DNA from: Rhodoluna limnophila
GTDB taxonomy: Bacteria; Actinomycetota; Actinomycetes; Actinomycetales; Microbacteriaceae
NCBI RefSeq assembly: GCF_005845365.1
Contig: NZ_CP040509.1
Span: forward strand, 1,116,001-1,180,000
Length of the DNA: 64,000 nucleotides
Direction of reading: 5' to 3'
How positions within the stretch are numbered: position 1 is the first letter of the stretch; every line of letters starts with the position of its first letter. Positions 3,896 through 52,280 of the stretch are shown here, one piece after another. The notes under the pieces are model-generated. The model searched no databases. It saw only the letters and a list, made by a program, of their open reading frames with translations, and was not told the DNA's origin. The position numbers and the translations under genes were made by a program.

Positions 3896-3901
3896 GGGCT
3901 G

Positions 3902-5600: not shown

Positions 5601-5640
5601 GATTTCCCCTGATTTCTAGAGTCTGAAAAGTTTGTGAGTT

Positions 5641-6921
5641 TTAGCGACCGGTACCGGCGTAGACAACAGCTTCGATGTCGCTGTCTAGGCCGAATGCGGT
5701 GTGAACAGCGCGAGCGGCTGCATCTACCTGGTCATCGCTGGTGATAACTGAGATGCGGATCTCTGAGGTTGAGATCATCTCAATGTTGATGCCCGCCTCG
5801 GCAAGAGCGCGGAACATGGTTGCAGAAACACCTGAGTGGGTGCGCATACCGGCACCGACTACAGAAAGCTTGCCAATTTCATCGTCGATCTCGACGGTGC
5901 GGAAACCAAGAGTTGCCTTGGCTGCCTCTAGCGCTGCAGCGACCTTCTTTGACTCAGCCTTTGGGCAGGTGAAGCCGATGTCGCTAACCGCATCGGTTAC
6001 GTCAGAACCGGTTGGGGTGTTCTGAACAATCATGTCGATGTTGGCACCAGCGTCGGCAACCAATGTGAAAAGCTCAGCAGCCTTGCCTGGAACATCTGGA
6101 ATACCGATGACCATAATCTTGGTCTGGCCCTTGTCGATTGCTACACCCGATACGACTGACTCTTCCATGCCTGCTCCTGCTTTTCCTGAATAAACGATGG
6201 TTCCTGGGTCGGTGCTAAAAGTTGAACGAACGCGTAGGTCTACGTTGTGGCGGCGAGCAAACTCAACCGCGCGAATGTGCAGAATCTTTGCTCCGGCTGC
6301 TGCAAGCTCAAGCATTGATTCAACATCGATGGACTCAAGCTTCTTGGCACCCTTAATAACTCGTGGGTCTGAGGTGTAGACACCGTCAACGTCAGAGTAG
6401 ATCTCACAAAGGTCAGCTTTTAGGCCGGCCGCCAGTGCAACTGCAGTGGTGTCAGAACCACCGCGACCAAGGGTTGTGATGTCACGAGTCTCGCGGTTGA
6501 AGCCCTGGAAACCGGCCACGATTGCAATGTTGCCAGCGTCAACTGACTCACGGATGCGCTCTGGGGTGACCTCGGCAATACGGGCATTTCCGTGGACGCT
6601 GTCGGTGACGATACCGGCCTGTGAACCGGTGAAAGACTGTGACTTACCGCCCTGGGCATTGATGGCGATGGCCAGCAATGACATCGAGATGCGCTCACCC
6701 GAGGTAAGCAGCATGTCTAGCTCACGAGGGCTGTCATTTGGATCGTCGGCTACCGAATTGGCAAGGTCCAGAAGTTCGTCGGTGGTGTCACCCATGGCTG
6801 AGACAACGACGACAACCTGGTTGCCGGCTTTTTGGGTTTCGATTACGCGACGAGCAACGTGCTTAATCTTGTCGGCATCGCCAACGGATGAACCGCCAAA
6901 CTTCTGCACGATAAGGGCCAA
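5641..6921 (-). CDS. lysC: Aspartate kinase (alpha subunit; encloses a beta-subunit start)
   Basis: Phosphorylates aspartate, the first committed step of the aspartate pathway. The 426-residue protein starts at TTG 6921 ([13 protein letters not shown]), preceded seven bases upstream by GAGGAG; a longer frame back to 6975 lacks a binding site and the family's N-terminus begins at the KFGGSS strand. The amino-acid kinase domain covers about residues 1-230 ([34 protein letters not shown]). Two ACT domains follow (about 260-330 and 340-415) and bind the lysine/threonine effectors. A strong internal start at ATG 6168 would make a separate ACT-only subunit, as in alpha2beta2 aspartokinases of Corynebacterium and Bacillus. 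Confidence 0.95.
6166..6178 (-). promoter_or_regulatory. Internal ribosome binding site and start for the aspartokinase beta subunit
   Basis: Inside lysC, AGGAG (complement of 6174-6178) lies five bases before ATG at 6168, in frame. Translation from here gives a 175-residue protein beginning [17 protein letters not shown], which is exactly the ACT-domain part. This matches the position of the beta-subunit start known in class II actinobacterial aspartokinases. Confidence 0.7.
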
Positions 6922-32830: not shown

Positions 32831-35800
32831 CTAGCCGCGGTCTAGAAACTGGCGGCGTTTGATCCAGCCAATCAGCGCCAACAAAATCAGCACGCAGGCT
32901 AGCAACCAAGGCCAAGTTGACTCAACAAATTTTGCGAAATTAGACATGACCTCAGGCACTACCCCACCGTTGCCCTCAGCTGAGTTTTCACCCTCGTTGG
33001 TCTCTGGGTCGGTGGCTCCGGTGGTGCCGGTTGGGTCTGGGTCTTCGTCGTTCGGAATACCATCGCCATCCATGTCAGAGTCTTCTCCGTTAGGAATGCC
33101 GTCGCCGTCGATGTCTGAGTCTTCGTTGTTCTCGATGCCATCGTTATCAGTGTCAACCGGCTTTTGACCGCCGGCGCCGGTCTCGCCGCCATCAACCGGA
33201 GCGGTTGGCTTTGGAGTCGGCTTAGGGGTCGGCTCTGTGGTCTCTTCTGGGCCCGGAGTCGGGCTCGGGGTTGGGGTTGGGGTTGGGTCAACCGGTGGTG
33301 CAGGTGGCGCCGGGATAATCTCGGTGACGGTTGCCTCGGCACCAACACCGTTTACGTTCAACGCCGCGATCTTCATTACGTAGGTGCGGCCCAGCTGAAC
33401 GTTGTCAACGGTGTAGTTCAACTCGGCCTCATCAAGCTCTAGCTCGACAGCCTCGGCACCACCCTCAATACGCACGCGGTAACCAGTGACCTCGGCACCG
33501 CCATCGGACTCTGGGGTAACCCAAGCCAACTTGATCTTCTTACCGTTGGCGTCGTCAACCTCTGAATCCAAGGCACGTGGCTCTGATGGGGTTGCCAAAC
33601 CGAGGTGAACACCCTCGGTGATGTAGTCGGTTGCGGTAGGGGCAAACTCTGGCGCTGAAGTTACGGTAACAACCTTCACGCTGTATCCGGTCAGAGGCTC
33701 GGCGGTAGCGCTCGGGCTAGGAGTCGGGCTTGGTGTGACATTGGCAGTTCTAAAGCTGGCAGTGCGGAAGGCCACAGAGGCAGATCGGAATGAGGCAGTG
33801 TCGGTGCCGCCACCGCTACCGCTCGAAACAGAGCCATCAATCGAGCTGACCAAGACACTCGTGTTTAGGTTGGCGCTTGGCGAGACCATGATTGGGTCAC
33901 CATAGTTAGTGGTTCCGGCCGGCGCGATGTAAACCTGGTAGCCAATCACCGAGCTGTCGGTTGCCATCGGCTCGTTGAAGTTGATGACCAACTCATCGAG
34001 CGAGCGGTCAGATGCATCAACAATGTCAACGTAAGAAATCAAGTTGGTAACACCCTGAGTTTGGGCCGCTGGAGTTAGCGGACCAGCCACATCAGAGAAC
34101 AAACCTAGGCCGGCGCGGGTAATGGCTGCGACCTTGGCGGTGTAGGCCACACCGTTAGGAACACCGGTGATGGTACAGCTTAGGTCAGCACCATTTGCTG
34201 GTGCGTCTGCCGAACACGCAGCGTTGGTGTAGACATCTCCGTTTGGAGCGGTGATCTCAAAAAGGTAACCAAGAACTGAGCTGCCACCTAGGTAGCTAGG
34301 TGCACGGAAGGACACGGTGTACCACTGGTTACCGGTTGAGATTGAGGTGACCTTTGGCTTACCGGCAAGGTCTGGAGCAATCTCAAACAGGCGGGTAACC
34401 GGAGGAGCAGGCAGGTACGTGGCATTGCCAGCCTGGGTTGCAGTGATCTCACACAAACCAGCGCTTAGGTAGCGCACAAAGGTACCAACACCCGGGTAAG
34501 CAACCAACTGACAGGCAGTTACATTGGTGCCCAACTGGTAACTAATTGGCAAACCAGAGTTTGAGGTTGCAGTTAGGTAGAAACCCGGGTCATTGAAGCG
34601 CTTGTTGGCAATCTCGGCAAACGTAATGGTCTGGTTTAGTGCACCAACGGTGATGCGCTGCTCGGCAGACGCTGAGTTGAACTGAGAGTCGCCGGCCTGA
34701 GTGGCGCGAACCTCACAAATACCAACTGCCAAGAAGTTGATCTTGCCCGGGGTGGTGGCATCAAAGTCACAGATGGTGCCCTGGCCCAAAGTGATTGAGT
34801 AAGTAACCTCTAGCCCGCTAGTTGCGGTGGCAGCCGGGCTGTAGCTACCCAAAACAACAGGGTTCATCGGAATGGTCGAGGTGAAGGTCACAACCTGATC
34901 TTGCTTGGTGAAAGTAAAGGTGCGGGTGGCGCTCAGCGCAGAGGTGTAGTTGAGCGACGCAGCCTTGGTGGCCTGAACCTGACAGGTGTTGCTTGCTGTT
35001 GCGCGCAAAATGTTTGAGCCGTTAGGGCCTGCAATTATCGAACAGCCGGCATTGTTGGTGACGCTGATTACGTTGTAGGCAACCGCACCATCACCTGAAC
35101 CACCGGCGGTAAAAAGCTCAACATCGCCAACGTTCACGGTGTTCAAGTTACCAATGCTCAATGGGTTCTGAGCAATCTTGTTTACCCTGATGGTCATCTC
35201 GGTAACATCGCTGGTTAGATAGTTTGCATCGCCGCGCTTGAAGGCAAACAGCACACAGTCAGAGCCAGCATTGCCAGGCAAAACCTTTCCACCGATGAGC
35301 TCACAGGTGCCATCAACACTGAAGACAAAACCGTTGACCGATGAACTTCCGCCGCTGGCAGTTGGGGTCAGGGTCGACCAGAAGTCAACGTTGTCTGCGC
35401 TGGTAATAACCACTTCGGCCTGACGAGCCTTGGTAATCACAAAGGTGTCAACCACAGAATTTGTTCGGTAGAAAGTAGCCGAAGGCACGGTCATGGTTAC
35501 CGGGCAACTGCCCACACCGCGGATGCTGATTTCACCGGTGCCGGCATCAACCACACAGATTGTCGCTGCGGCAGTCGTGCTGAATACCGGGGTTGCGGTT
35601 GAATCGGTGCTGAATGTGGCAGCCACCAAGTTGCCGGTCTGACCAACCGGCACGTAGGCCTGATCAACATAGCTCAGGGTTGCGGTCGCAACCTTATCCA
35701 TGGTGAATGTGGTTGAGTCAAGCAAAGTGAAGCTGCGTGAGTCACTGGTCGACGCCACGAATTCAAGCGTGTAGACCTCACCCGGGGTACCGGTGATAAC

Positions 35801-38800
35801 CAGACCACTAAAGTCAACCAAACCATTTACCGCGGTGGCAGTTGTGCTGCCGCTGACCGAGCCACCAATACCGGCACCGATGCGCGCGGTAACCACAGTT
35901 GAGTTATCACTGGTTGCAAGGTTTCCGAAGCTGTCGCGAACATGAAGCTTTGGCTGGTTGGTCGGTGCAGTCCCAATCAAGAAGCCGCTCTCAATGCCAG
36001 GCGTGCGCATGGTTAGTGCGGCTGGGCGGGCATGTGCCGGGGTCAGTACATCAGACACCGGAGCCGAGAACGAGGTGCTGCCGACCACCGCTGTAAAGGT
36101 AAGCGTGTAGTCAACTCCTGGGGTTCCGACCAACTGAAGGTTGGTAAAAGTGACCACACCTTCGTCACTAACCGCAGTCGCGTTGCGCACCGAACCACCG
36201 ATTCCCGAGGCAACGGTTGCCGTCACCACGGTTGTGTTGTCCGAGGTAATTACGTTGCCGTCAAAGTCCTTCATGATCAGCACAGGCTGAGTGGTTAGGT
36301 CTTCACCGGTCTGCCCCACCTCTGACTGAACACTCCAGACCAACTGGCTCATGGCAGCGTGAGTCACGCTGAAATCGGCTGAGGCGGCGCTGGTTAGCGA
36401 GCCAGATTCGAAGGTCAAGTTGTAGTCTTCACCCGGGGTTCCCCGGAACTTGAGCCCGCTAAATGTGACCACGCCATTCACGGCAGTTGCAGTTAGTGGC
36501 GCTGATGCCGCCTTGACCAGTGCGCCGCCCGAGGCCGAGACGGTTACCACGGTTGTTGAATCGGCAGTCACGGTGTTGCCAAAGATGTCGGCTAGGCGCA
36601 CCACCGGCTGGGTGTTCAAAAGTTCTCCGGTTTCAGCACCGATAGGCTCGCGAACCATGATCAACTGGGTTGCAGCCGAGTGAGTCACTTGGATGTTCTG
36701 TGACGACACCGATGTGAGCCCTGCGGTAACAAAGTTCAGCACGTAATCAGTGCCCGGGGTGCCGGTCAGCTCAAGGCCACTGAAAGTTGCCAAACCGTCT
36801 GCCACAGTTGCGGTTAGTGAACCCTCACCCGGGTTGGCCGAGTTGGTTAGCGTGCCGCCAGCACCGGTGACCGAGGCAGTAACAGTGCCAACAAAATCTG
36901 GAACCGGGTTCGAGAATCGGTCCTGAACCTGAGCAATTGGCTGAACGCCAAGCACGCCGGCTGTTGGGCCGAGTGAGCAAACACCGTTGGTCACAGTGCC
37001 AGAGCATGGCTGCTGGTAGACAGCCAGCTTGGCCGCAGCAGCGTGAGTCAGCTGGAACGCACTTGATTCGGCGCTGGTGAATGTCAAACCGGTAAAGGTC
37101 AGCTTTTGATCGGTGTTTGGAATAGCCACAATCTTGATGCCGTCAAAGTCAGCAACACCGTCGATGATCTCAGCCTGGTCACTGTTGGTAACTTGACCAT
37201 CAACCGCGTTGGCCGAGCCGCCGCCGGTAGTCACAGCAGCAGTCAAGAACTGGCCAGAGGTCAAACCGGTCACCACGTTGTCATCAAAGTCACGAATTTC
37301 AACCACTGGCGCCACCGCAAGGGCATCACCGGTGCGAGTCTTCGGGCCGGTTGGGCTGGTCTGGCTTGCCGGCTGAGTCACGATGGTTAGGTGGTGTGCG
37401 TCAGCGTGCGTGACCATCAAGTTGTCAGCGGTGCGCGCGTGAACCGTGTTGTCGACAGTCCAGCTGAAGTCCAAGGTGTAGTTCTCGCCAGGGCGGCCAA
37501 TTAGCTTGAGGGCATCGTAGGTAACCACACCGTTTACAGCTGTAATGGTTTCACCCTCAAGGCGGTCGCGATCATCGATGCTGTCGTGAATGGTAGCAAC
37601 CACCTGGTAGCTAGAGCCATTTGCGGCCTCAACCAGGTTGTTCCACTGGTCACGGAACTCTAGGACCGGCTGAACCTTTAGGGCCTCACCGGTCTTGTTG
37701 CGCACGTTGGCACCATCGACCGTTGCCGGCGCGGTGGTTGCCACCAACTGGTAGACATCGCCGTCGGTAATTGTGATGCCAGTCTGTGATGTACCGGCAA
37801 CGCTGGCGCTTGGCAAGTATGCGTACGTGAATGCATAGGTGTTGGAAGTCAGTCCACCGATACCAATTCCGAAGGTTGCCAAACCACTTGAAGCCGGGAC
37901 TGTTGTGCTACCAAATACCGCTGGCGTTCCGGTACCTGAAGCTACAGATACGCTCACCCGAATTGAACCGGTGTCGTCAAGAACGCGGTTGTTATAGCGG
38001 TCTCGGATTTCTACCTGCGGGCGGTCATCACCCGAAAGCTGAACACCGGCAGGGCCTACTCCAGGTGCGCGAGTTGCGGTTAGGTGGTGCGCCACGTTGT
38101 TACGAACAGTCAGGGCGTTGGAGTCGACAGAGTCAATTGAGTTGAAGCTGAACTTGAGTTTGTACTGAGTTGCCGAGCTGGTTGCGGTGGCAACGGTTCC
38201 AACCAACTTCACGCCGCTGAATTCGGCCACACCGGCAACAACGCTGGCGGTGGTTGACCCCTCAGACAAGCTGCCGCCGGCTCCCGAAGAAATCGAGACA
38301 GTGACCGAACCAGAGTTTTGTGCAACCACTGGATAGCCGCCGTCATCGACCAGCTCAACCTTTGGCTGTGCAGCCAGTAGTTCACCGGTGCGGGTGGTGT
38401 TGCCCTGAGTATCAACCGATGATGGCTGGTTCAAAATCACAACGTCAGCAACATCGCCGGCCATCAAAGTGAATGCATTTGAAGTGGTTGCGGTGAGTGT
38501 GTCGATCATGCGAGCACGCAGGTAGTAACCCTCAGTTGCCGGCGCGCCTTCAAGGATGACGTTCGAGAAGGTCACCAAACCGCTGGTGGCTGCAACACCG
38601 GTGGCCTCAGAAACTGAGACGGTGTCATTTGTGGCATCAGAATCGCCGCCGTTTGCCATAACCGTGATTGCAACCTGAGTGCTCGAGTCAACGGTCACAC
38701 GGTTGCCAGATGCATCAAGAAGCTCAACCGTCGGTGCCGGGGCAATTGCCTCACCGCGCTTGACCGTGCTTGGCTGCTCAACGAATCTAACTGCAGTTGC

Positions 38801-41800: not shown

Positions 41801-44800
41801 GCCGGTAACAGTCAACGGACTTGTCGTGTCAGCCTTCAAACTTCTGGTGCCAACGGTTGCCGCAACATAGAAATCACTGCCCAAAGTTGCAACACCAGCG
41901 TTAGCCACCGCAGTAAGCGTTCCATAAAGAGTTACATCGGTTGAACTAAAAGTAACGGTCATTCCCGAGCCAGAACCAGTCAAAACCGTGTTGCCATCTT
42001 GGTCCTGAATGGTTGCAAAAGGCTTGCTGGCCGGAACAACACCATTGACCAAAGCAGAAGGCGCAGTAACAGTGATGTGGTGAGCATCACCATGAGTGAA
42101 AGTCACATTGTGAGAGGTCGTGGCAAGAGAACCACTTGCAAAGGTTAGGGCCCGGGTGCCAGCCTCACCATAAATACCTAGATCGGTGAATGTGGCACGG
42201 CCTGAAACTGCGTCAACCGCGGTATCACCAGAGACAGTGGCACCGGCGGCAGTTGAAACCGTGACCTCAATTGTCGAGTTATCAACCTTGTTACCAGAGC
42301 TGTCTTGAACCTCGATAACCGGCTGAACCGAGAAGGTTGCGCGGTTTTTTGTTGCCAATGCCTGGGTGTAAACCGCCAGTTTGGTTGCTGCACCGTAGGT
42401 TAGCTCGATGGTTTGAGAACCAGTTTTTCCACCTGAAGTTGTAGCGGTGATTGTCTTGGTACCAACTAGGCCAGCAAGCTTTATGCCTGCGGTCGTGAAA
42501 TCAACTTCGCCTAACGTGCTCGAACCGGTTAGGGTGCCTGAAAGCGTGACGTCATCTGAGCTCAATGTGACCTGTGTGTCGTTGAAGGTCACATAGTTCA
42601 CCAAGTTGTTGTCGGCATCGCGGAAGGTTACCTTGGGTGCCGAAGAAAGTGCAGCATCATTGGCTGCTGTTGCCGGAAGCTCAAGCTGCAAATGATCAAT
42701 TGCCTGAGTTGCGCGGAACTGAATGCTCTGTGAAGAGACCGATAGGAGACCCGGTGCCGAGAATGCGATTGTGACCGCTCCGGCAGTTCCTCTAAGTTGC
42801 ATGCCCGAGTAGGTCGCACGGTCTCCATTTGAAACTTCAACGGCCATGGTTGACGATCCATCACCAAAAGCAGCACCAGTTGCTGTTGCCGTGACAGTAG
42901 TGGTGGTTGGGGTCGGGTTGCCCGAGATGTCTTGAACGACAACAATCGGCTGCGTTGGGAAAACTGTGCGGTTGTACTGTGGCGTGGCAACGCCAGCTGC
43001 AAAAGCCAGCTTGTATGGAGCACCTGCGCTAATTGCAACAGAGAGATTGTTAGTTATCGAACTTGGCGAAGCTATGGAGGCGGTCAGGGTTTTGGTTCCA
43101 ACCGTGCCCTTAAGAGCAACTGCCTTTCCGCTGAAATTAGCCACACCCTCCTGAGCAGACATCGAGGTCGTGCCAGAAATTTCAGCTCCAGTGGCAGTCA
43201 GCGTGACAGTCTGGCCGCTATCAGTGCCACTGGTTACGGTGTTTCCTGAACTGTCCTTGATGGTCACAATCGGCTGGGTTGCCAACGCTGTGTTGTTCAC
43301 AACCGTTGAAGAACCAGAAATCGAAAGCTGGGTTGCTGCACCGTGTGCCAAAGTCAACGACTGGGTGTCCGCAGTCAGCGATCCAGAAGTGTAAGTAAGG
43401 GTGTAGTCGCCGACCAAACCGCTCAGCTTCAAGCCGCTGAACTCTGCTACACCAGCAACTGCCGCCTTGGTCGTTGCGGTGCCAAGGGTTCCGCCAGCGC
43501 TGCTAGCAACGGTGATGGTCGAGGTGTTGTCAGCAACAACGTTGCCAGCGGAGTCAACAACCTTAACCACTGGCTGGGTGTCAAATGTGGCATCATTCGC
43601 GGCACCAGCAGCAGCCGTGGTTACATCCAGAGCAGCGGCATTTCCATAGGTAATTGAAATTGCCGACTGGGCCACCGAAATATCAGCCGAGTTATAGGTA
43701 ACCGTGTAGGTGATTGTGAAAGATTCAGTGGTGCGGCCCTTGATACCGAGGTCGGTAAAGGTTGCCACTGCATTCACAGCCTCAACAGTGGTGTCACCAA
43801 TCAGAGTGCCGGTCCCGCTGGTGAGCGATGCGGTAACGACCAAAGACTTGGCAGCATCGAGCACGACCAGGTTATTGGCGGCATCGCGAATGTGAATGAT
43901 TGGCTGGGTTGTGAAGGCGATGTCAGATTTACCACCGGCGGCAGCTCGGAAAACGTGAAGGTTATCTGGGTCACCGGCTTTGACATCGTAGGTGCCCGAA
44001 GTCTCGGTGATCGAGGCAGTGCCCACGGTGGCACTAAAAGTAAGAGTGTTGGTGCCGGTGGTGGTGAACTTTAGGTCATCAAAAGTGACCACACCGTCGA
44101 CCGAGGTCTCAGTTAGAGTACCGGCAAGGGTTGAGGTTCCGGTGGCCAAACTCACGGTGAATTCGGTTGAGTCAGCCAGGGTGTTTGTGGTTTGAAGGGT
44201 TGATCCGTACTTGTCTTTTAGAGTCAAAGTCGGTGGCGGGTTGAACGTCACGTTCATGTATGCATCGAGGGTGTTGCCTGCGGTTGGCAAGTTTGCCTTG
44301 TCTACCTGGAACGGGGTTCCAAAATTTGGGTCAATTTCATCGACCGAGCTCGGGGTGTAATCAACCGAGTTGGTGAAAGTCGGTGCGGTGGTGCCGGTGG
44401 CATCAATCGCTAGGTTGCCGGTCACACCAAATGGTGAATTGCCAAACGTGATTGAGGTTGCCAAGAGACCCAGGTTTTTTACCGCGATGGTTCCAGAACC
44501 GGTAATTGTGCCGGTAGTTCGAAGCGCAAGGTTGCTTGCCTTTGTATCGGCAACAGTCATGGTTCCACTAACGGTGATGTTTCCGGTTGTCGTGCCTGCG
44601 TAATCACCGATTCGAATGGTCCCGGCGGTCACATAGTCAAGCTCGGTGTCGGTCAGGTCAAGCTGGTTGGCTGCCGCAGCGCCACCAAGGACAATCGGTG
44701 TGGTGGCGGTGGTTGGCGCAAACTGAACGATGCCGGTGCCGGTTGCGGTGCCCGAGGTAATTGCAGCTGAAACTTCTGCCTCGTTGGCAGTCAGGTTGAT

Positions 44801-47800
44801 GTTTCCATCAGTGCCGGTAGACGTCAGAGCAGCACTGACCGTCAGTGTGCCAGCGTAAACACTGATGTCACCGGCAATTGACTGCGCCTTTGAGATCGTG
44901 ACATTTGCGGTGTTAGTGGCTGTACCAATTTGCAGACCGGCCAGGGCGCTGAGAGACAGTCCGCTGGCCAAGGTTTGGGTTGCCCCAAACGCAGCGGCTG
45001 TATTGAGGAACTCAGCTTTAGTGGCATTTTGAATACTCGCAACATCGGTATCAAAACTGAATTTGTCAGCCGATAGCCTCACAACATCAGCAAGTGAGTT
45101 GGTTGCCGATCCACCAATCCTGACATCACCTGAGTTTCCACCGAAATCCAAAGTTTTTTGCCCTGCATCGATAAAGATGTCGCCACCGGCATCAAAGATG
45201 TTGATGTTGTTGAGTGAAATACCTTGGCTCGTTCCAGATGAACTCGAGCCAGTGATCTCGACAGCGCCACCACCGCTTGCGGTAATTGAAGTGGAGCCGG
45301 TGTTGGACCAAACAACGACGCCCCGGCCGTTAGTAGAAGAACCACTGGATGAACCGGTAAGTGAGATTGCGGTGCCGCTCGCCCGCCCAGATGAAATGGT
45401 TGTTGCGTATCCACCAATCCAGTTAAGCTCTAGCCCATGCCTAGTTTTGTCTCCAGTTGTTGAACTTGCAACGCCGTCCAAAACTACGGCACCCGATTGC
45501 GTGTCGATTGATGCGCCGGACCAATATTTGACTCCCAGACAAGTCGTGGTGTCGGTTACGCTTTGCCCCTTGACTGTGATGTCACCAGAGACGGTGGAAA
45601 TTGCCACAACACCGGCAGCAGCGCTCGTGCCGATTTCGACACCGTTGCAATAAGCAGTGTTTGACACTGCATACCCAGTCGGGGTTACCTCAGCCACATC
45701 GGCCGAACCCGCGAGAGTAATGGGGCCATTTTTGGATGATAGGTCTGTGTAGTTGCCAATCCGAATTGCGCCAGAGCCGGAGGCGTCGGCATTTGACCAA
45801 AGGGTAATTGGCGCCGAACCATTAGCCCCCGTCGCGGAAATCGACTTCCTAGCCGAAGACGTTCCAGCGCTTGTCGCAATGTCACCGTTGGCTTTCAGAA
45901 GAATGCCTGTGCCTGCAGCGCTGGTTGCGGTCAGTGAACCACCAACCGAGATGTCGCCACCGTAAACACTTATTTGGCCGGAGGATAATGCGGAAGCTAA
46001 GGAAACATTCTTTGTGTTTCCGGCCTTGCCTATGCGAATAGAGCTCGAACCAGACGCGATAGTTAGGCCCGCGGTGCTCAAATCACCCGTCGAGTTAATG
46101 ACTGATGCCTCGAAGGATTCTCCCTTTGACTCGAAAACAACAGACCCTGTAGCCGTCACCGACGTGGAGCTAAAAGCAGCAAAGCCAGAGCCAGATGCCA
46201 AGAAATTCTTTGAGGTACTTGAAACTAAAGCCAGGTCCACCGCCGCTGTGCCACTGCCGATGTATGAGATGTCTCCATTTGTCGTTGAGATTGAGCTGAC
46301 TGAGCCAGCGAGGATGTCGTATGAACCCGTCTTGTCGTTTGCGCGGCCCTCAAAAATGATGTTTCCATCGGTCGATGACACGTTTACACCGTAAATAATG
46401 ATTCCACGGCGCCGATCCGAAGTGCCCGCAGTTGCATCGCCAAAGAACTTTATTTCTCCCGAAGTTGATGTGATGGTTGGCTTTGTGGTGTTATTGCCCA
46501 GCCAGATTCCATACTTGTTACTGGTGCTGGTGTCTGTCGCCGCCAGCCTGCCAGACCAGCTCTGAGAACCGTCTCCGGTGGAAACAGTAAAAGCGACCGG
46601 CTCAAAGTAAATGCCTGCCTGGGTCGTGCCGGTAACAGCATCAGCATTTTCACCTCTCACGAGCAAGTCTCCACCACTTGTTGTTACGGAGGACGCCATT
46701 ATTACACCGAAACTGTAAGGGTCGCTAGAAACATTAGTGCCCTTGCAATATCCGGTTGGATACCCGGTGGTGTCATCCGTCGTCAAACCTCCAGCTGCAA
46801 CAAAATCTCCGCCTTGGGTGAAGAATGTGTTACCGGTGTCCAGGTAACAACCGCCGGCGCTAGCACCAGAACCACCATCTGAATTTCCCCAAATCACAAT
46901 CGGGCCATCCTTGGTTTGAATGGTTTTGGTTGTGGTGTTGAAAATCACATCTTGTTTTGACTTGAGCTGCAGTTTTTTGCCGGTAGTCGAAAGAGTGATT
47001 CCGTTGGCGATTGTGATGTCATCGCCAGCGGTAACGGAAATAGATCCGGTGGCAGAAATTGCACCAGTGTTGGTATAGGTGCCAGTCGCTGAAACAGAGA
47101 TGTCTGCCGTAGCGCTTGTTGTGGTTGTCAGCGCTGCGTGTGAAACTGCACCACCGTAAATTGTGATTGGCCCTGCAGCCTTGGCACTACCTGCATACGT
47201 TATGTCACTGGTTGTGCCTAAACGACCAAGTGAAAAGGATGCGTGGTCAGCAAAAGATGCAAATTGACCGAATCTCCAGTTTGTGGCTGTCTGGGCTCGC
47301 TTGAAGTTGTCGGCAGCAGTGACTAGGCCGCCGGAGAGCGATGCAGGTTGAATTTCAACATTGCCAGTTGTGTTTAGGGCCGTGCCGTAGCCGCCCTCCC
47401 ACGAATAAAAGGCATTGACGTTAAGAGTCACATCAGAGCTTGAAGCCGTAAAGTCTGCAGTAACACCGCTTGGGGTGGTGATAACCCCGCCCCCTGCAGC
47501 GCCAGACCCGTTAGCCTGCCAACCACCAAGGCGAAGCAAGCTTGAGCCGTTTCCACGCCAACCAGTTCCTAGGCCTGCGCTGCTAGTGTCGCCATTCGAA
47601 ATAGCATTCACGGTAATTGGCCCGCTAATGGCGAGAATGTCAGTGAATTCCGCTTCGATTCCCCAACCGTCGCTGTTAGTGCAACCACTCTTGCTGCTAG
47701 CGATTCCGGTCAAGGTAATACCTCCACCGGCACGAGTTGCCAGAATCTGAACGCCTTGCCAACCTTTGACCGAGTCGTAGGCGCCATGCCACCAGGACGT

Positions 47801-50800
47801 AATACCGCGAGAGCAGGTCGCTCCCTCGCTTGAATCTGAATAGATAGTAATTGCGTCAGCGGTGCTTGCATTTGAGGTGATGGTCACCTTTGAAGTTCCG
47901 TCACCGTTATTTAAGGCAATTCCCTGGCTGTAGTTTGTAGATCCTGTAAGAGCACGCCCCCACATAGCGATTCGTCCCGAACCAGAATCGACCACGGTAT
48001 CGGGATTGAGGAGTATGTGACCGTCCCAGTTTGAGCTAGCAGGCCCTTGTGCTCCAGCCATAAAAATATCGCCGCCAGCAGATTTGAGTGACGAACTTGT
48101 GTGCATGAATACACCAATACGCCATGCATCGGTTGCGTTATATCCGACCGCGTAGCCATCCGGAAGCCCATCGCCGGCAGCTACCGACGACCACTTGCCC
48201 CGGCTCGCTGTTATTGCGGCATCTGCGCCACCATCATCCAAGCCACCGGCAAGCCATATCTTTCCCCCATTTGAGGCCAGGGCAACACTTGACTCCAGGT
48301 AGATCATGCCACCGACTTTGTTTACTCCACTGACTTTGCTGCTGTTGGCCCAGAAGACAATGTCTCCGCCGTTAGTGGTGACGGTTTTTGATGCCTGCAC
48401 GTAGATACGGTCAACAGTTTTGATTCGAATTTCGCTACCGGCACCTGTTGATTGGAGATTGCCTCGAACATCGATTGAACCCGCGTAAACACGAATAGGA
48501 CCGGCGATTTTAATGTTTGGGTACAAATCATTTAAGTAGAACGAGTCGGTAGTTTGATCCTTACCGATTGTCACGCCCGTGCAACTTTCAGAAAAACTCA
48601 GACCCTGCCCGGCAGTCTTGAACTCGCTGAAACCTGTTGAGGCAATAGGTTCAAATTTAAAGGTTCCGGCTGTGTTCACTCTTAGGTTCACATCGGAATT
48701 GAACGAAGTAAATCGGTTTGCTGAGATTGCGATGTTTGAACTAGTTGTTGTTACCTTCGACAATGGGCAGTCAGCAACTAAGCATGAGCCGAGGACTGAT
48801 TTGGCAGAGCTCCAAGTACTATAGAGAGCTCCGGTGAACAATCCTCCACCCCAAGTTGTTGCCTGATTCGCACCTGTGAGAGTTATGGGTCCGACCGACA
48901 ACAGGTTGCTGGCGTTCAAGCCAATATCCCAAAGGTCCGTACCCCCTCCATCTCCGGTGATTGCAATACCACCAGCGCCAGTCGCCTGAACGTAAACAAG
49001 ATTGGCCGTTCCCTGATTCGCAGCCATCCCCACACCGTAGGCTGTTCCGCTAATACCGGTGATTGAGATGGCTGGCACCGTTGCGGATGAGCTAAATATT
49101 TCAGTGGGCACAGTCGATCCACCCATGCGGTGAATCTGTATGGCCCAACCGGCGGCAGTGTTCTGACCGTCCAGCACAATTTGACCGCCATTTGCGTAAA
49201 TTTTGTGGCCGAAATTTAGAGAAAGAGCATCCATTCCGCCACCAGATTTTCCACGAGCAACGAACTTGCCGCCGCCTGTGTAGTAGCTGGTCAACGTCGC
49301 CGATGATCCACCTTGGCCAGAGTGAAAACCTGATGATGTTCCATCTGAATATCCATAGCCCGTTGGAAAACCATCCCCGTCGACTGTACTGCCGCCACCG
49401 AGGATTATCGATCCTCCCCCGGTCGCGGTCGTCGAAGTGCTGCCATTTGCGCTGTTGAATGTTGACCCAGAGTAGACCCGGTTGAAACCGGAATTGTTTC
49501 CATCAGAGTCCGCCCAGAAAACAATTGGGCCGCCGTTTGATGTGAAGTTGGTTGCGGCGCTATTCAATACGTTTGTGGCTGCCTTGTATTGAAGTTTTGC
49601 CCCTGAGCCAGTCACCGTCATACTTCCACCGATGGAAATCTGCCCCGCAGTTGATTCAAAGCTCGCGGCACCAGTCGTGCTCCAGGAGTTTGGCAGCGTC
49701 AAGGACTTCGGCGAAGTGATGGAGATTGCGCCGCCAGCTGACAGCGTAGTCAGGTTCGTGTAAAAATCACCATTTGTTGAACTATTGGCAGTCAAAGCGA
49801 TTCCGCCGGTACCGGTGGTTGTGACACTGCTATTGGAAGTGGCAAAGTAAAGGCCTGCGCTGGCACCCGTGTGGTTATTTCCGGTGATAGCGATATTTCC
49901 ATTGCCGGAAGTGATTGTGGCACCTTCAAACAAGGCGGCATCCTGAGCTGTTGACGCTGCGCTAGTAGTTGCAGTGATTGAAATTGCGCCAGAGGTTGAA
50001 GTTATTGAAGGACTTGCACTTGCACCCGACTTGGTCATGCGCACAGCGCGGTGCGAACGGCCAGTGTCAACCTGATCAGTGTCTATAAGTCCCTTGATCG
50101 TGATGCTGCCGCCAGCACTTGAAATTGAGCCGCCAGAAATCATGTAGAAGGCTGCTGAGTCGGCGGTTCCAGAACCAATTTGACCATTCATGGTGATGGC
50201 GCCACCACCAGAATTTACCGACCCAGATATGTAGATTCCAGCGTTGTCGATTGTTGGGTCAGACGCAAGAATCGCGGTGCCGTTGTAGGCAGTCGCAAAT
50301 CCTCGAGCGTACCCTGTTGTTTCTGTGTAGCTGCCACCGGCAAAAGTGATTGCGCCGCCATTTGAGTTGACTGAAGTGGCGGCACCCAACACAAAAACAT
50401 TTCCTGCATTGGAGGCAGAACCACCATCGGCATTAGAAAGCAGAGTGATTGGGCCATTGTTGACGGTCAGCGATGCGCCGAAACCTAGATACCCAGCGGC
50501 GGCAATCTTGATTCCTTTACCAGCAGTTGTTCCGGTGACTGCAGCACTTGAGTAAAACGACCCCGATGTTCGAATCGACACATTTTGTGTGTTGATTGCG
50601 TTGCTCAAGTCCGTTGCGTTGATCTGTGAAACACCTGTGGTGGTCGTCAGCCATTCACCGTTTGAAAAGAATCCTCCTGGGTCGGATGAAGTAGATACAA
50701 CATCGATGGCCGTCGCATAGTTAACTGTTTTTATGGCGTTAGACGTTGTCGATGTGTAACCAGATGCGGTGAACGTAAGGGTCACATTTGTTCCGGTAGC

Positions 50801-52075
50801 GCCGGTAGCAAGCCCAAGATTTGAGAACGTAGCGACACCATTTGAATCGGTTACGGCTGTGGTTGTGCCCGTGATGAGGGTGCCACTGCTGGAGGTTGCG
50901 GTAACTGTGACCCCGGCGGTGGTGTCATTTTCCGTTCCACCTTTTAGTTGCACAGTCGGGGCGCTCGAAAACTTCTCTCCGACCTTTCCGTAAGAAACGG
51001 TTGTGGTTGAGGCAAGACTTGCAGCCGGAGTAGTAACCGGCAAGTTCGCGAAAGACTCAAAACTGAACCCGGATAGGTCTGCACCATTCCGCATAAAAGT
51101 CCAGTCCGGATTTCGAGTACCGTTTGGCGCTGTGCCGGTGTTGTTACCGAACCCAAAGTCCGGATCACCAACAGCATGGTTGTTCCACGCAAAAATAGTG
51201 CTTGCGGTTCCTAGATTGTGAACCTGAAAAGACCCGTACTGCCCATTACCAACGCCGTTTGGTCGGTCACCATAGTCGTAGCTTGAGTCGCTACCGGTCA
51301 TACCAACCTGGGAGCCCTCCCATGAATAATCCCAAGGCCATATCTCTACACGACCACTGATACCTGTAGCAGTTGCAACACTTGAAGAAGTGCTCAGGAT
51401 ATTCATGTCAGAGACATCTGCCTGAAGGATGAACTGGGCGTTTGTGCCTCCGGTCGGCGACGGAACCTGAAGTTTGTAAAGGTTGTCGTAAGTGTCCGAC
51501 AATGTGCTTCGGGTACCCATAGCCTTTGAAAAGTCGACGCTTACTTGGCTACCGTTGCCGGCAAGCACGTATCGAATTCGACTGAAATCAGTGCGCGACA
51601 AACTCCCCGCATAGATTGACGTGTAACTGTGGGCACCGTTTGTAGAGCCACGCCACTTATTGAGAGTTTTGTAAATACTCTCCCAGTCGTAACCATAGGC
51701 ACCCTGGTTGCCAGAAATCATCGCAGCTACACGTGTGTAATAACTGGTTGATGCATTTAGTCCAGTGATCTTGTGGGTAAAAGTGCTGGCCCCAATCGAT
51801 GACGATGAGGTTGACCAGCTTGAACCATCAGTCGAATACTCAACTCGATAGCCAGTGACGGTGTATCCGTTGGTTTGAGCCGGCGCAGTCCAGGTAACGG
51901 TTACCGACCTTGGCCCCGCCACTGCGTTTACGCTTTGCGGGGCTGAAACATTGACGGTGTCGGCTGAAGCCGTGACCAAGTTGAAGCCTAGAAAGGCCAC
52001 CACCAGAAACAAACCGATGAGCAGTTTTGAGCTGCGATTTATGGTGCGTTCACGGTAGTCAAGACGACCAAACAT
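32831..52075 (-). CDS. Giant multidomain surface protein, 6,414 residues, membrane-anchored
   Basis: One unbroken reading frame. ATG 52075 (MFGRLDYRER) is chosen because GGAGG lies six bases upstream; 26 upstream codons lack a binding site. Sec signal peptide to about Ala38 (TASA/D). Approximate domains: FN3 43-130; an unassigned globular domain 135-365 (YDWESIYKTLNKW, WPWDYSWEG); one Ig-like unit 370-455; Ser/Thr/Gly-rich haemagglutinin-like beta-helix 460-2590; 26 Ig-like units 2605-5460; MBG-like repeats with cysteine pairs to about 5900; FN3-like domains; a Thr-Pro linker; thrombospondin-3 Ca-binding run (DTDNDG, DIDGDG, DMDGDG); C-terminal helix WPWLLACVLILLALIGW with KRRQ tail. No LPXTG is seen, so the helix itself is the anchor. 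Probably a long fibre for adhesion, aggregation or shielding, an inference from architecture. It has no adjacent dedicated secretion genes. Confidence 0.93.
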   Translation of the reverse strand: MFGRLDYRERTINRSSKLLIGLFLVVAFLGFNLVTASADTVNVSAPQSVNAVAGPRSVTVTWTAPAQTNGYTVTGYRVEYSTDGSSWSTSSSSIGASTFTHKITGLNASTSYYTRVAAMISGNQGAYGYDWESIYKTLNKWRGSTNGAHSYTSIYAGSLSRTDFSRIRYVLAGNGSQVSVDFSKAMGTRSTLSDTYDNLYKLQVPSPTGGTNAQFILQADVSDMNILSTSSSVATATGISGRVEIWPWDYSWEGSQVGMTGSDSSYDYGDRPNGVGNGQYGSFQVHNLGTASTIFAWNNHAVGDPDFGFGNNTGTAPNGTRNPDWTFMRNGADLSGFSFESFANLPVTTPAASLASTTTVSYGKVGEKFSSAPTVQLKGGTENDTTAGVTVTATSSSGTLITGTTTAVTDSNGVATFSNLGLATGATGTNVTLTFTASGYTSTTSNAIKTVNYATAIDVVSTSSDPGGFFSNGEWLTTTTGVSQINATDLSNAINTQNVSIRTSGSFYSSAAVTGTTAGKGIKIAAAGYLGFGASLTVNNGPITLLSNADGGSASNAGNVFVLGAATSVNSNGGAITFAGGSYTETTGYARGFATAYNGTAILASDPTIDNAGIYISGSVNSGGGAITMNGQIGSGTADSAAFYMISGGSISSAGGSITIKGLIDTDQVDTGRSHRAVRMTKSGASASPSITSTSGAISITATTSAASTAQDAALFEGATITSGNGNIAITGNNHTGASAGLYFATSNSSVTTTGTGGIALTANSSTNGDFYTNLTTLSAGGAISITSPKSLTLPNSWSTTGAASFESTAGQISIGGSMTVTGSGAKLQYKAATNVLNSAATNFTSNGGPIVFWADSDGNNSGFNRVYSGSTFNSANGSTSTTATGGGSIILGGGSTVDGDGFPTGYGYSDGTSSGFHSGQGGSSATLTSYYTGGGKFVARGKSGGGMDALSLNFGHKIYANGGQIVLDGQNTAAGWAIQIHRMGGSTVPTEIFSSSATVPAISITGISGTAYGVGMAANQGTANLVYVQATGAGGIAITGDGGGTDLWDIGLNASNLLSVGPITLTGANQATTWGGGLFTGALYSTWSSAKSVLGSCLVADCPLSKVTTTSSNIAISANRFTSFNSDVNLRVNTAGTFKFEPIASTGFSEFKTAGQGLSFSESCTGVTIGKDQTTDSFYLNDLYPNIKIAGPIRVYAGSIDVRGNLQSTGAGSEIRIKTVDRIYVQASKTVTTNGGDIVFWANSSKVSGVNKVGGMIYLESSVALASNGGKIWLAGGLDDGGADAAITASRGKWSSVAAGDGLPDGYAVGYNATDAWRIGVFMHTSSSLKSAGGDIFMAGAQGPASSNWDGHILLNPDTVVDSGSGRIAMWGRALTGSTNYSQGIALNNGDGTSKVTITSNASTADAITIYSDSSEGATCSRGITSWWHGAYDSVKGWQGVQILATRAGGGITLTGIASSKSGCTNSDGWGIEAEFTDILAISGPITVNAISNGDTSSAGLGTGWRGNGSSLLRLGGWQANGSGAAGGGVITTPSGVTADFTASSSDVTLNVNAFYSWEGGYGTALNTTGNVEIQPASLSGGLVTAADNFKRAQTATNWRFGQFASFADHASFSLGRLGTTSDITYAGSAKAAGPITIYGGAVSHAALTTTTSATADISVSATGTYTNTGAISATGSISVTAGDDITIANGITLSTTGKKLQLKSKQDVIFNTTTKTIQTKDGPIVIWGNSDGGSGASAGGCYLDTGNTFFTQGGDFVAAGGLTTDDTTGYPTGYCKGTNVSSDPYSFGVIMASSVTTSGGDLLVRGENADAVTGTTQAGIYFEPVAFTVSTGDGSQSWSGRLAATDTSTSNKYGIWLGNNTTKPTITSTSGEIKFFGDATAGTSDRRRGIIIYGVNVSSTDGNIIFEGRANDKTGSYDILAGSVSSISTTNGDISYIGSGTAAVDLALVSSTSKNFLASGSGFAAFSSTSVTATGSVVFESKGESFEASVINSTGDLSTAGLTIASGSSSIRIGKAGNTKNVSLASALSSGQISVYGGDISVGGSLTATSAAGTGILLKANGDIATSAGTSSARKSISATGANGSAPITLWSNADASGSGAIRIGNYTDLSSKNGPITLAGSADVAEVTPTGYAVSNTAYCNGVEIGTSAAAGVVAISTVSGDITVKGQSVTDTTTCLGVKYWSGASIDTQSGAVVLDGVASSTTGDKTRHGLELNWIGGYATTISSGRASGTAISLTGSSSGSSTNGRGVVVWSNTGSTSITASGGGAVEITGSSSSGTSQGISLNNINIFDAGGDIFIDAGQKTLDFGGNSGDVRIGGSATNSLADVVRLSADKFSFDTDVASIQNATKAEFLNTAAAFGATQTLASGLSLSALAGLQIGTATNTANVTISKAQSIAGDISVYAGTLTVSAALTSTGTDGNINLTANEAEVSAAITSGTATGTGIVQFAPTTATTPIVLGGAAAANQLDLTDTELDYVTAGTIRIGDYAGTTTGNITVSGTMTVADTKASNLALRTTGTITGSGTIAVKNLGLLATSITFGNSPFGVTGNLAIDATGTTAPTFTNSVDYTPSSVDEIDPNFGTPFQVDKANLPTAGNTLDAYMNVTFNPPPTLTLKDKYGSTLQTTNTLADSTEFTVSLATGTSTLAGTLTETSVDGVVTFDDLKFTTTGTNTLTFSATVGTASITETSGTYDVKAGDPDNLHVFRAAAGGKSDIAFTTQPIIHIRDAANNLVVLDAAKSLVVTASLTSGTGTLIGDTTVEAVNAVATFTDLGIKGRTTESFTITYTVTYNSADISVAQSAISITYGNAAALDVTTAAAGAANDATFDTQPVVKVVDSAGNVVADNTSTITVASSAGGTLGTATTKAAVAGVAEFSGLKLSGLVGDYTLTYTSGSLTADTQSLTLAHGAATQLSISGSSTVVNNTALATQPIVTIKDSSGNTVTSGTDSGQTVTLTATGAEISGTTSMSAQEGVANFSGKAVALKGTVGTKTLTASIASPSSITNNLSVAISAGAPYKLAFAAGVATPQYNRTVFPTQPIVVVQDISGNPTPTTTTVTATATGAAFGDGSSTMAVEVSNGDRATYSGMQLRGTAGAVTIAFSAPGLLSVSSQSIQFRATQAIDHLQLELPATAANDAALSSAPKVTFRDADNNLVNYVTFNDTQVTLSSDDVTLSGTLTGSSTLGEVDFTTAGIKLAGLVGTKTITATTSGGKTGSQTIELTYGAATKLAVYTQALATKNRATFSVQPVIEVQDSSGNKVDNSTIEVTVSTAAGATVSGDTAVDAVSGRATFTDLGIYGEAGTRALTFASGSLATTSHNVTFTHGDAHHITVTAPSALVNGVVPASKPFATIQDQDGNTVLTGSGSGMTVTFSSTDVTLYGTLTAVANAGVATLGSDFYVAATVGTRSLKADTTSPLTVTGTGSITVEEGAAHHLVLTQNSSTNVASGAEFGTQPKLRFVDLGENHITATTSASITVTADRTTLGVVTGSTTLTGTVNQEFSYATNKLKLTGTIGDVVLTYSGTLGSNSVTSATETLTLSHGTATQLIISAQTTTVNNTVLTTQPVVTVKDASGNVVTSGAGDTDTITLSNNNDSDYALSGTTSMTLTDGVANFAGKGVKLTGLVGARTIKVETSTLGLSGTHGITITYGAATKLTLVTEAAGFVNRTDFTTQPVVEVQDISGNKVDNANIDVTAAITNATLTGTTTVRSASGTATFAGLGKYGTVALDKVFSVSADGLASDSQTFTLTHGVAKQLSVTTPAAGARHAKALTTQPVVEIQDQDGNRVSTGSDAGQTVTVTASGTNISGSKTATASAGTATFSGFTISGTEGLANLSYSIASPDAITKAATVQLTFGDAVALDEVTNPTGFTNRTNFTTVPQVTVEDSAGNRVTDATGNIDVSISDAAQGSSSTLTGTTSVAINNGLATFTGLGKYGSVGTKTLTFESGSLTDDTFEFELTHGVATQMVLISGDSTVRAGFAIGATALEIQDQDGNLVDTGDAATARVSVAATRDAGGASATLVDSGFSAPLSAGNRRAVAGVVSFAGLKLEGTKGAHTLTFSVAEPSAFSALTTAQTLDLTPGTATNLNVVEQPTDAVANVAFSPAVKVELRDAWSNRVTQDAASIKPVLVDAVTVATEYDATKSAVAATEGLVTFTGLSFTKAATAKLRFDATGLASIYSSQFTITHGEAHHLAWTTIEPSTVRSGFVIQPTPIFAVRDEWNNPVNSGAATTVTATVSSANSGDVLTIDGATEVTPTGSELVTFDSLALTAKAANYKLRFTATNSGKTIDTTFVETASTVAVTYGVPDRLGLTAASSTVRAGFEFADQPIIKILDSANNVVADDTFTVTATLPAGAPKTDQSLTGDTSMTATAGVANFGLNANKLGAGGSIVDDLNLLFSATNGTTTLSATQLFDLTPGLATAVRFVEQPSTVKRGEAIAPAPTVELLDASGNRVTVDSSTQVAITVMANGGDSDATNDTVSVSEATGVAATSGLVTFSNVILEGAPATEGYYLRARMIDTLTATTSNAFTLMAGDVADVVILNQPSSVDTQGNTTRTGELLAAQPKVELVDDGGYPVVAQNSGSVTVSISSGAGGSLSEGSTTASVVAGVAEFSGVKLVGTVATATSSATQYKLKFSFNSIDSVDSNALTVRNNVAHHLTATRAPGVGPAGVQLSGDDRPQVEIRDRYNNRVLDDTGSIRVSVSVASGTGTPAVFGSTTVPASSGLATFGIGIGGLTSNTYAFTYAYLPSASVAGTSQTGITITDGDVYQLVATTAPATVDGANVRNKTGEALKVQPVLEFRDQWNNLVEAANGSSYQVVATIHDSIDDRDRLEGETITAVNGVVTYDALKLIGRPGENYTLDFSWTVDNTVHARTADNLMVTHADAHHLTIVTQPASQTSPTGPKTRTGDALAVAPVVEIRDFDDNVVTGLTSGQFLTAAVTTGGGSANAVDGQVTNSDQAEIIDGVADFDGIKIVAIPNTDQKLTFTGLTFTSAESSAFQLTHAAAAKLAVYQQPCSGTVTNGVCSLGPTAGVLGVQPIAQVQDRFSNPVPDFVGTVTASVTGAGGTLTNSANPGEGSLTATVADGLATFSGLELTGTPGTDYVLNFVTAGLTSVSSQNIQVTHSAATQLIMVREPIGAETGELLNTQPVVRLADIFGNTVTADSTTVVTVSASGGALVKAASAPLTATAVNGVVTFSGLKFRGTPGEDYNLTFESGSLTSAASADFSVTHAAMSQLVWSVQSEVGQTGEDLTTQPVLIMKDFDGNVITSDNTTVVTATVASGIGGSVRNATAVSDEGVVTFTNLQLVGTPGVDYTLTFTAVVGSTSFSAPVSDVLTPAHARPAALTMRTPGIESGFLIGTAPTNQPKLHVRDSFGNLATSDNSTVVTARIGAGIGGSVSGSTTATAVNGLVDFSGLVITGTPGEVYTLEFVASTSDSRSFTLLDSTTFTMDKVATATLSYVDQAYVPVGQTGNLVAATFSTDSTATPVFSTTAAATICVVDAGTGEISIRGVGSCPVTMTVPSATFYRTNSVVDTFVITKARQAEVVITSADNVDFWSTLTPTASGGSSSVNGFVFSVDGTCELIGGKVLPGNAGSDCVLFAFKRGDANYLTSDVTEMTIRVNKIAQNPLSIGNLNTVNVGDVELFTAGGSGDGAVAYNVISVTNNAGCSIIAGPNGSNILRATASNTCQVQATKAASLNYTSALSATRTFTFTKQDQVVTFTSTIPMNPVVLGSYSPAATATSGLEVTYSITLGQGTICDFDATTPGKINFLAVGICEVRATQAGDSQFNSASAEQRITVGALNQTITFAEIANKRFNDPGFYLTATSNSGLPISYQLGTNVTACQLVAYPGVGTFVRYLSAGLCEITATQAGNATYLPAPPVTRLFEIAPDLAGKPKVTSISTGNQWYTVSFRAPSYLGGSSVLGYLFEITAPNGDVYTNAACSADAPANGADLSCTITGVPNGVAYTAKVAAITRAGLGLFSDVAGPLTPAAQTQGVTNLISYVDIVDASDRSLDELVINFNEPMATDSSVIGYQVYIAPAGTTNYGDPIMVSPSANLNTSVLVSSIDGSVSSGSGGGTDTASFRSASVAFRTASFRTANVTPSPTPSPSATAEPLTGYSVKVVTVTSAPEFAPTATDYITEGVHLGLATPSEPRALDSEVDDANGKKIKLAWVTPESDGGAEVTGYRVRIEGGAEAVELELDEAELNYTVDNVQLGRTYVMKIAALNVNGVGAEATVTEIIPAPPAPPVDPTPTPTPSPTPGPEETTEPTPKPTPKPTAPVDGGETGAGGQKPVDTDNDGIENNEDSDIDGDGIPNGEDSDMDGDGIPNDEDPDPTGTTGATDPETNEGENSAEGNGGVVPEVMSNFAKFVESTWPWLLACVLILLALIGWIKRRQFLDRG
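33025..33165 (-). repeat. Thrombospondin type 3 calcium-binding repeats in the giant protein
   Basis: Three to four short units of the form DxDxDGxxNxxD (DTDNDGIENNED, DIDGDGIPNGED, DMDGDGIPNDED). They sit between the Thr-Pro linker and the membrane helix. Such repeats bind calcium tightly and stiffen the stalk. Confidence 0.85.
34370..35695 (-). repeat. MBG-like repeats of the giant protein
   Basis: About five units with the pattern TF-x-I-T-K-A/Q...C-x-V-x-ATQAGNxxY (for example GICEVRATQAGDSQF and GLCEITATQAGNATY). They carry most of the protein's cysteines, in pairs that can form disulfides outside the cell. Confidence 0.7.
35695..44263 (-). repeat. 26 tandem Ig-like (invasin/BIg-like) units of the giant protein
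   Basis: Each unit of roughly 95-125 residues starts with H/KL-x-V/I, then T-QPVVxVxDxxGNxV, a GxATFSGLxLxGxxG core and ends TxxSxxLTHGxA leading to the next. Examples: KLAVYTQALATKNRATFSVQ, QLIISAQTTTVNNTVLTTQP, HLTIVTQPASQTSPTGPKTR. The units are clearly homologous but diverged, so the array is old rather than recently expanded. It accounts for about 2,850 residues and would form a long rod. Confidence 0.85.
44305..50698 (-). repeat. Haemagglutinin-like beta-helix of the giant protein with a five-copy super-repeat
   Basis: About 2,100 residues of short alternating strands rich in Gly, Ser, Thr and Ala (SITSTSGAISITATTS, GNIAITGNNHTG). A larger unit recurs: a GPI-[VT]-x-W/L-x-N/D-S/A-D-G strand near residues 540, 847, 1235, 1723 and 2088 (GPIVFWADSDG, GDIVFWANSS, GPIVIWGNSDG), and a GxISVYGGxIxVxGxLT strand that closes four of these units. 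Confidence 0.8.
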
Positions 52076-52171: not shown

Positions 52172-52190
52172 TGTTCGGTCGGACCGAACA
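52172..52190. promoter_or_regulatory. Perfect 9+1+9 palindrome upstream of the giant gene
   Basis: TGTTCGGTC-G-GACCGAACA is an exact inverted repeat with a one-base centre. A further CGGTC/GGTC motif lies beside it (52159-52168). It is 97 bases upstream of ATG 52075, between the rplL terminator and the gene. On the minus strand TTGACC (52165-52170) and a TTTAGA/TAGACT region (52138-52145) could be the promoter, though the spacing is 19-21. It looks like an operator or activator site. Confidence 0.6.
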
Positions 52191-52243: not shown

Positions 52244-52280
52244 AAGAGAAAACTCCCCCAGGCCGAAGCCCGAGGGAGTT
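52244..52280 (-). terminator. Rho-independent terminator of rplJL
   Basis: On the minus strand AACTCCCTCGGGC-TTCG-GCCTGGGGGAGTT forms a 13-bp stem with two G-U pairs and a UUCG loop, followed by TTCTCTTA. It lies 19 bases after the rplL stop. Confidence 0.92.

Follow-up and report, generated by a model that had tools for sequence, protein, structure and literature searches.

The giant gene and its surroundings

The window analysed here is a 64,000-nucleotide stretch (contig NZ_CP040509.1, positions 1,116,001 to 1,180,000) of the genome of Rhodoluna limnophila, a very small bacterium of lake plankton; the genome is a single contig of 1,398,704 bp (G000 in our survey). Almost a third of it is taken up by one minus-strand gene flanked by rplL and a PCu(A)C gene, which we refer to as the giant. 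Its features, in window positions, are as follows.

32831..52075 (-): whole giant gene, ATG at 52075 and stop at 32831, 6,414 aa plus stop
51962..52075 (-): signal peptide, residues 1-38, ending in TASA (hydropathy; cleavage site by eye)
51704..51946 (-): FN3 domain, residues 44-124 (Pfam, E 2.6e-10)
51029..51712 (-): tip domain, residues 122-349, containing R-[VL]-E-I-W-P-W-x-Y (no match in Pfam or PHROGs)
50726..51037 (-): extra (27th) Ig-like unit, residues 347-450 (HMM of 26 units)
44318..50725 (-): Gly/Ser/Thr/Ala-rich block, residues 451-2586 (2,136 residues), suspected beta-solenoid, with homologous stretches in relatives
35714..44317 (-): 26 tandem Ig-like units, residues 2587-5454 (recurring motif and HMM)
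34340..35713 (-): five Cys-containing repeats, residues 5455-5912 (initially annotated as MBG-like; visible in the sequence, no such Pfam match)
34091..34339 (-): FN3-like domain, residues 5913-5995 (below the Pfam cut-off)
33320..33568 (-): FN3 domain, residues 6170-6252 (Pfam)
33152..33319 (-): Pro/Thr-rich linker (sequence)
33032..33154 (-): TSP3-type acidic repeats, residues 6308-6348 (sequence; Pfam TSP_3 below cut-off)
32861..32917 (-): C-terminal membrane helix, residues 6387-6405, followed by a KRRQ tail (hydropathy)
52172..52190 (unstranded): perfect 19-nt palindrome upstream of the giant, containing the spacer-5 inverted repeat GTTCGG-N5-CCGAA common to other occupied sites
52251..52280 (-): terminator-like hairpin of rplL, between rplL and the giant (1 found; mean of shuffles 0.9)

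The initial annotation had claimed a single giant frame without stop or frameshift, and both the extent and the length that it gave are exact. The frame has no internal stop, while the other five frames of 32831..52075 hold 201-412 stops. A GGAGG lies a short way ahead of the ATG, and with an alternative TTG start the protein would be 26 residues longer. The search for a sigma-70-type promoter was negative. Elsewhere in the window, the ORF at 53502-55802 has short internal DNA repeats at 55166-55352, seen as extra matches to the related genome G017, and the G+C content peaks at 54-56 kb.

Domain anatomy

Profile searches of the domain blocks, proposed with the initial annotation as a check, were run against Pfam. 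They support FN3 at residues 44-124 and near the C-terminus and leave the N-terminal domain 122-349 as unassigned as it had been described; hydropathy places one transmembrane helix at 6387-6405. Other parts of the description stood less completely. The MBG-like repeats exist as five Cys-containing repeats at 5455-5912 but have no Pfam support as MBG, and the TSP3 run is visible at 6308-6348 while its Pfam match falls below the cut-off; calcium binding would be expected of it, as it is of TSP3 repeats in general. The claimed beta-helix has no counterpart among Pfam or PDB-sequence matches to block 451-2586, although such a fold is plausible from composition and conservation. An FN3 match to the giant is also found in a 618-codon frame elsewhere in the same genome (G000:C1:929147-929467).

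The 26 Ig-like units of the initial annotation were recovered, together with a 27th at 347-450 that it had missed. The 26 units were delimited by a recurring motif that we picked, and the HMM was built from them, so that their recovery by this HMM is by construction; it also adds the 27th unit and many in relatives, and finds none in reversed proteins. Identity between units averages 27%, with a maximum of 52%. At iE < 0.01 the relatives G037, G049, G007, G008 and G005 hold 36, 30, 28, 27 and 61 units, of which 35, 29, 28 and 26 lie within the main array in the first four. A structural model of one unit, computed from the 26 rows, has a pLDDT of 88. Among solved chains it comes closest to GH2 enzymes and Runt, with a best E of 4.6e-3, no match at 1e-3 and a TMq of 0.53-0.71 in the best 50 structure matches; we take the aligned parts of these chains to be Ig-like. 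The sequence search with the unit gave weak matches to Runt and a Lap adhesin and also to designed Pizza proteins, the last of which we take for chance matches. The modelled repeat unit thus has the character of an Ig-like beta-sandwich, with modest fold matches.

The tip domain is rare. The R-[VL]-E-I-W-P-W-x-Y stretch is present in all eight aligned members, and a similar motif presumably occurs in planctomycete proteins. Searches of Pfam, PHROGs, PDB sequences, phages and viral contigs returned nothing for the domain, and plasmids yielded one partial match (E 3e-3). An AlphaFold model from the eight rows reaches a pLDDT of 38. Within the genus the domain is matched across in two of 60 genomes (G000 and G022), and in the phylum sample in one of 396, the present one. 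The G022 protein also stands in a Rhodoluna sp. record (JAGOAI010000017.1). The combination of FN3 and tip occurs in seven named loci, all of them actinobacterial MAG records, and four of these encode proteins in closed frames of 459-668 codons (L035, L037, L039 and L040, from other actinobacterial MAGs), which by eye share a C-terminal part that contains Cys and has a basic end. In another Rhodoluna MAG (L038, 4793-9481) the same tip has a different stalk and anchor, by eye InlB-type repeats and a C-terminus that resembles OmpA.

The site behind rplL within the genus

The presence or absence of the gene at the same site in related genomes, another of the suggested checks, was determined in 60 Rhodoluna genomes drawn evenly. 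Profile PF00542 finds rplL in 46 of these; four (G020, G021, G026, G040) were dropped because their sequence runs out within 70 nt of that match, as was the additional rplL copy that G029 has on a different contig, leaving 42 readable sites. Some empty sites were read for 0.5-1.2 kb, enough to show the next gene. Immediately downstream of rplL, eleven sites carry a large protein with a signal-like N-terminus (by hydropathy; by eye in G005), one carries a tail remnant (G035), and 30 are empty. The frames at the site have 6,414 codons in G000, 12,006 in G005, 10,724 in G037, 9,066 in G049 and 8,783 in G007 and, counted from stop to stop, 8,162 in G008, 2,584 in G006 and 595 in G017; the proteins of G030, G002 and G044 are cut by contig ends. 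The G035 site retains only a tail and its partner gene (see below), a remnant that could be an artefact of the MAG.

Within Rhodoluna the site behind rplL is therefore size-variable, a new observation. Giants also occur elsewhere, namely a second one in G006, with a frame of 7,968 codons, and one in G211 (10,947 codons), for which rplL is absent among the upstream neighbours in the stretch read, so that the rplL site is favoured rather than exclusive. The N-terminus of the second giant of G006 (about G006:C1 1280055-1304000) looks, by eye, like the Gly-rich tip of G017. A tree built from rplJ (34 sequences) and rplL (42) in the genomes that have both genes is too weak for counting gains and losses. 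The initial annotation had taken the retention of 19 kb in a compact genome as a sign of strong selection. This needs qualification, since with 30 of 42 sites empty and a version of 595 codons in G017 the giant is variable, and dispensable in many species.

The inverted repeat GTTCGG-N5-CCGAA is found within 500 nt after rplL in seven of 12 occupied sites (G000, G017, G037, G049, G006, G044 and G035; it is absent from G002, G005, G007, G008 and G030) and in none of the 30 empty ones, a difference with a Fisher p of 2.9e-5 when relatedness is ignored. With the pairs G000/G017 and G037/G049 collapsed, before G005 was added, the counts are 5/9 vs 0/30 (p 2e-4). A regulon was considered and rejected: the palindrome with up to two mismatches has three matches in the genome, two of which are this site on both strands, and the reversed control has seven. 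A looser spaced inverted-repeat pattern gives five matches vs one in the control, and a second spacer-5 copy in the genome falls in a coding gene. In G054, where the rplL site has no giant, two tandem spacer-5 copies lie near gene ends (L156, 1228-1265).

Conserved stalk, diverse tips and two kinds of tail

BLAST without composition correction is misleading for such proteins, as shuffled and reversed controls reach up to 419 bits; we used corrected results exclusively, for which these controls, covering all relatives but G005, gave nothing at 1e-3. The stalk is 35-38% identical to those of G007, G049, G008 and G037 over 3,271-3,940 columns and 30% identical to that of G005 over 3,984 columns, while G030, G044 and G002 match in the Gly/Ser/Thr block. 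The Ig stalk is thus conserved at 30-38% in five relatives at the same site, in agreement with the original reading of the giant as a surface protein anchored in the membrane of a bacterium with a small genome. The 2,584-codon protein of G006 has no match to the giant under composition correction and is not a stalk homologue.

The homology to G037 does not extend into the tip: corrected identity begins past it, at residue 432 (46%). Head-to-head BLAST of ten proteins sorts the tips into the groups G037/G049, G007/G002/G044 and G008/G030/G006, with the present tip in none of them. Above the Pfam cut-off, GLEYA is matched by the tips of G037 and G049, LamG together with Gly_rich_2 in G008, G030 and G006, and Gly_rich_2 by the tip of G017; below it, VOMI is matched by the tips of G007 and G002 and dermatopontin by that of G044. 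GLEYA domains bind sugars, and Pfam describes LamG_3 as concanavalin A-like.

At the other end of the protein, G037, G049, G007 and G008 have a conserved multi-helix tail (55-83% identical by BLAST; helices by hydropathy), and G005 has one by eye. The tail query matches ten of 199 genomes of the family, seven strongly (E 7e-51 or better) and three partially, and has no match in the present genome. Here the giant ends instead, as in G017, in a TSP3-type run and one transmembrane helix. A small TSP3-membrane gene adjoins all seven complete multi-helix Rhodoluna giants for which flanks were read, downstream in G037, G049, G007, G008 and G005 and upstream in G211 and the second giant of G006, and it also lies beside the G035 remnant. 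The sole match of this partner gene in the present genome is within the giant itself (54% over 69 residues, in the TSP3 region); the separate partner of the relatives is therefore the fused anchor here. The initial annotation had noted that no dedicated secretion gene is adjacent. None was noticed next door, but the TSP3-membrane gene that neighbours the giant in relatives is part of it in this genome. In other genera no such link between tail and partner was observed: G071, read on both sides, lacks a TSP3 gene, and none appears in the short flanks fetched for G185, G174, G219 and G171.

The 595-codon frame of G017 is a Gly_rich_2 tip joined to the tail type of the present giant, with 69% identity over the last 365 residues. 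A short tip-plus-anchor version thus exists, which may have arisen by deletion. At 52.5-55 kb of the window the DNA is 0.94-0.97 identical to that of G017, and in the tail of the giant 0.73-0.75. A recombination island was considered, as the identity falls from 0.97 at about 27 kb to 0.73 at about 33 kb, but it was rejected because the region is mosaic (0.72-0.97).

Proposed function

We consider it likely that the giant is a long, membrane-tethered modular adhesin consisting of an anchor, a stalk and an exchangeable tip, a role predicted from its architecture. The signal peptide would direct export by Sec, and the C-terminal helix with its basic tail would hold the protein in the membrane; a sortase model that gives a match in three of 14 control genomes gave none in this one, and the C-terminus lacks an LPXTG motif. 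The TSP3 run and the Pro/Thr linker would cross the wall, and the Ig and Gly/Ser/Thr blocks would form a stalk of perhaps 140-170 nm if extended, assuming rises of 0.48 nm per turn of 20-25 residues and 3.8-4.5 nm per Ig unit. For comparison, cells of R. lacicola measure about 0.3 x 0.9 µm (PMC4156110). The N-terminal domain would be the distal, ligand-binding tip that differs between species, a reading suggested by its position and by the tips of relatives, some of which match their families below the cut-off. Across the genus the locus behaves like a cassette with a homologous stalk, in which tip, length and anchor vary or the gene is absent. The lectin-type families at the tip in some relatives make attachment the best reading.

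These same lectin-type matches weigh against a passive coat, a surface layer keeping off grazers or phages in which the tips would be escape surfaces rather than ligand binders; moreover, a distinct N-terminal domain exceeds the needs of a coat. We regard a coat as possible but rather unlikely, even though patchy presence and variable tips and lengths would suit it and a giant frame in Omnitrophota has been proposed to form one (PMC10066038). Somewhat less probable still is that the giant serves as a phage receptor or decoy on which diversifying selection acts, with phages driving loss and tip change. This reading could account for the short version in G017, the tail remnant in G035 and the differing tips at one site, if the changes ran in the directions that it supposes, and it sits poorly with the searches of phages and viral contigs, which returned nothing related to the tip; plasmids gave the one partial match. 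The conserved Trp/Asp/Glu/Arg-rich positions of the tip could form the site of a polysaccharide-degrading enzyme presented on the stalk, but no catalytic family was matched in Pfam and NCBIfam scans of the giant, and we consider such an enzyme carrier improbable. An assembly artefact or chance frame, which the repetitive protein might bring to mind, is already contradicted, since the longest exact direct repeat inside the gene is 16 nt, codon use correlates at 0.975 with that of eight long ORFs of the window, and homologous giants of 8,162-12,006 codons occupy the same site in five other assemblies.

The adhesin reading can be taken further, as a speculation to which we give about one chance in a few: the rplL site may be a dedicated recognition locus of free-living ultramicrobacteria, where the inverted repeat drives the resident giant, tips are swapped from a lectin-like pool, and the tail and its TSP3-membrane partner form an undescribed two-gene anchoring device that is fused in this lineage. 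If so, the kinds of particle, alga, grazer or phage that each species encounters would depend on this locus.

Genome streamlining in planktonic bacteria is expected to remove dispensable genes. Several planktonic Rhodoluna nevertheless keep a gene of 19-36 kb at one site, where other species of the genus have none. The genus thereby offers a natural series for testing giants in free-living cells, with none, 595, 6,414 or 8,162-12,006 codons and several tips. Such a test of function is practical, given that R. lacicola is naturally transformable and that gene inactivation works there (PMC11577799). A literature search, conducted largely outside subscription journals, and word searches in PMC4156110 and PMC12422013 returned no account of these genes.

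Comparison with known systems

Nearest in kind to the Rhodoluna giant are the giants of Apilactobacillus kunkeei and the RTX adhesins, and the defining features of both that we looked for are absent from it. An N-terminal ligand domain, an Ig stalk and a C-terminal anchor also characterise the LPXTG-anchored Ig-type surface proteins of Gram-positive bacteria. The Rhodoluna giant has the same layout without the LPXTG motif or a detectable sortase gene. The TPS domain of two-partner secreted haemagglutinins has no match in the giant in Pfam or NCBIfam. The giant frames of Omnitrophota are likewise from tiny cells, and some have transmembrane helices and laminin_G_3, but they reach 39,678 aa and are mostly poorly conserved with few annotated domains; the accessible parts of that report describe no fixed site (PMC10066038).

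The five giants of A. kunkeei (Giant1-5) resemble the present one in being extracellular proteins of 3,000-8,000 aa from a 1.5-Mb genome, in the absence of transport genes near their cluster and in having been discussed as adhesins (PMC12863079). They belong to another phylum and differ in the N-terminal beta-solenoid of Giant1-4, the helical repeats of Giant1-3 and the SH3b-like C-termini, without a transmembrane helix, of all five (PMC12863079). The Rhodoluna giant has no SH3 match in Pfam and has a transmembrane helix at 6387-6405, so that the features of the A. kunkeei family are lacking; it combines an Ig stalk and a different tip with a membrane anchor and a TSP3 module.

The RTX adhesins MpIBP and MhLap share with it the succession of an anchor, an Ig-like extender and a distal sugar-binding domain (PMC6650083). 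They are Gram-negative proteins exported by type I secretion, however, with the anchor at the N-terminus and the adhesion region, including the RTX repeats, at the C-terminus (PMC6650083). Pfam found no RTX repeats in the Rhodoluna giant, searched in three overlapping pieces, and its polarity is the reverse: it begins with a signal peptide, carries its tip at the N-terminus and is anchored at the C-terminus.
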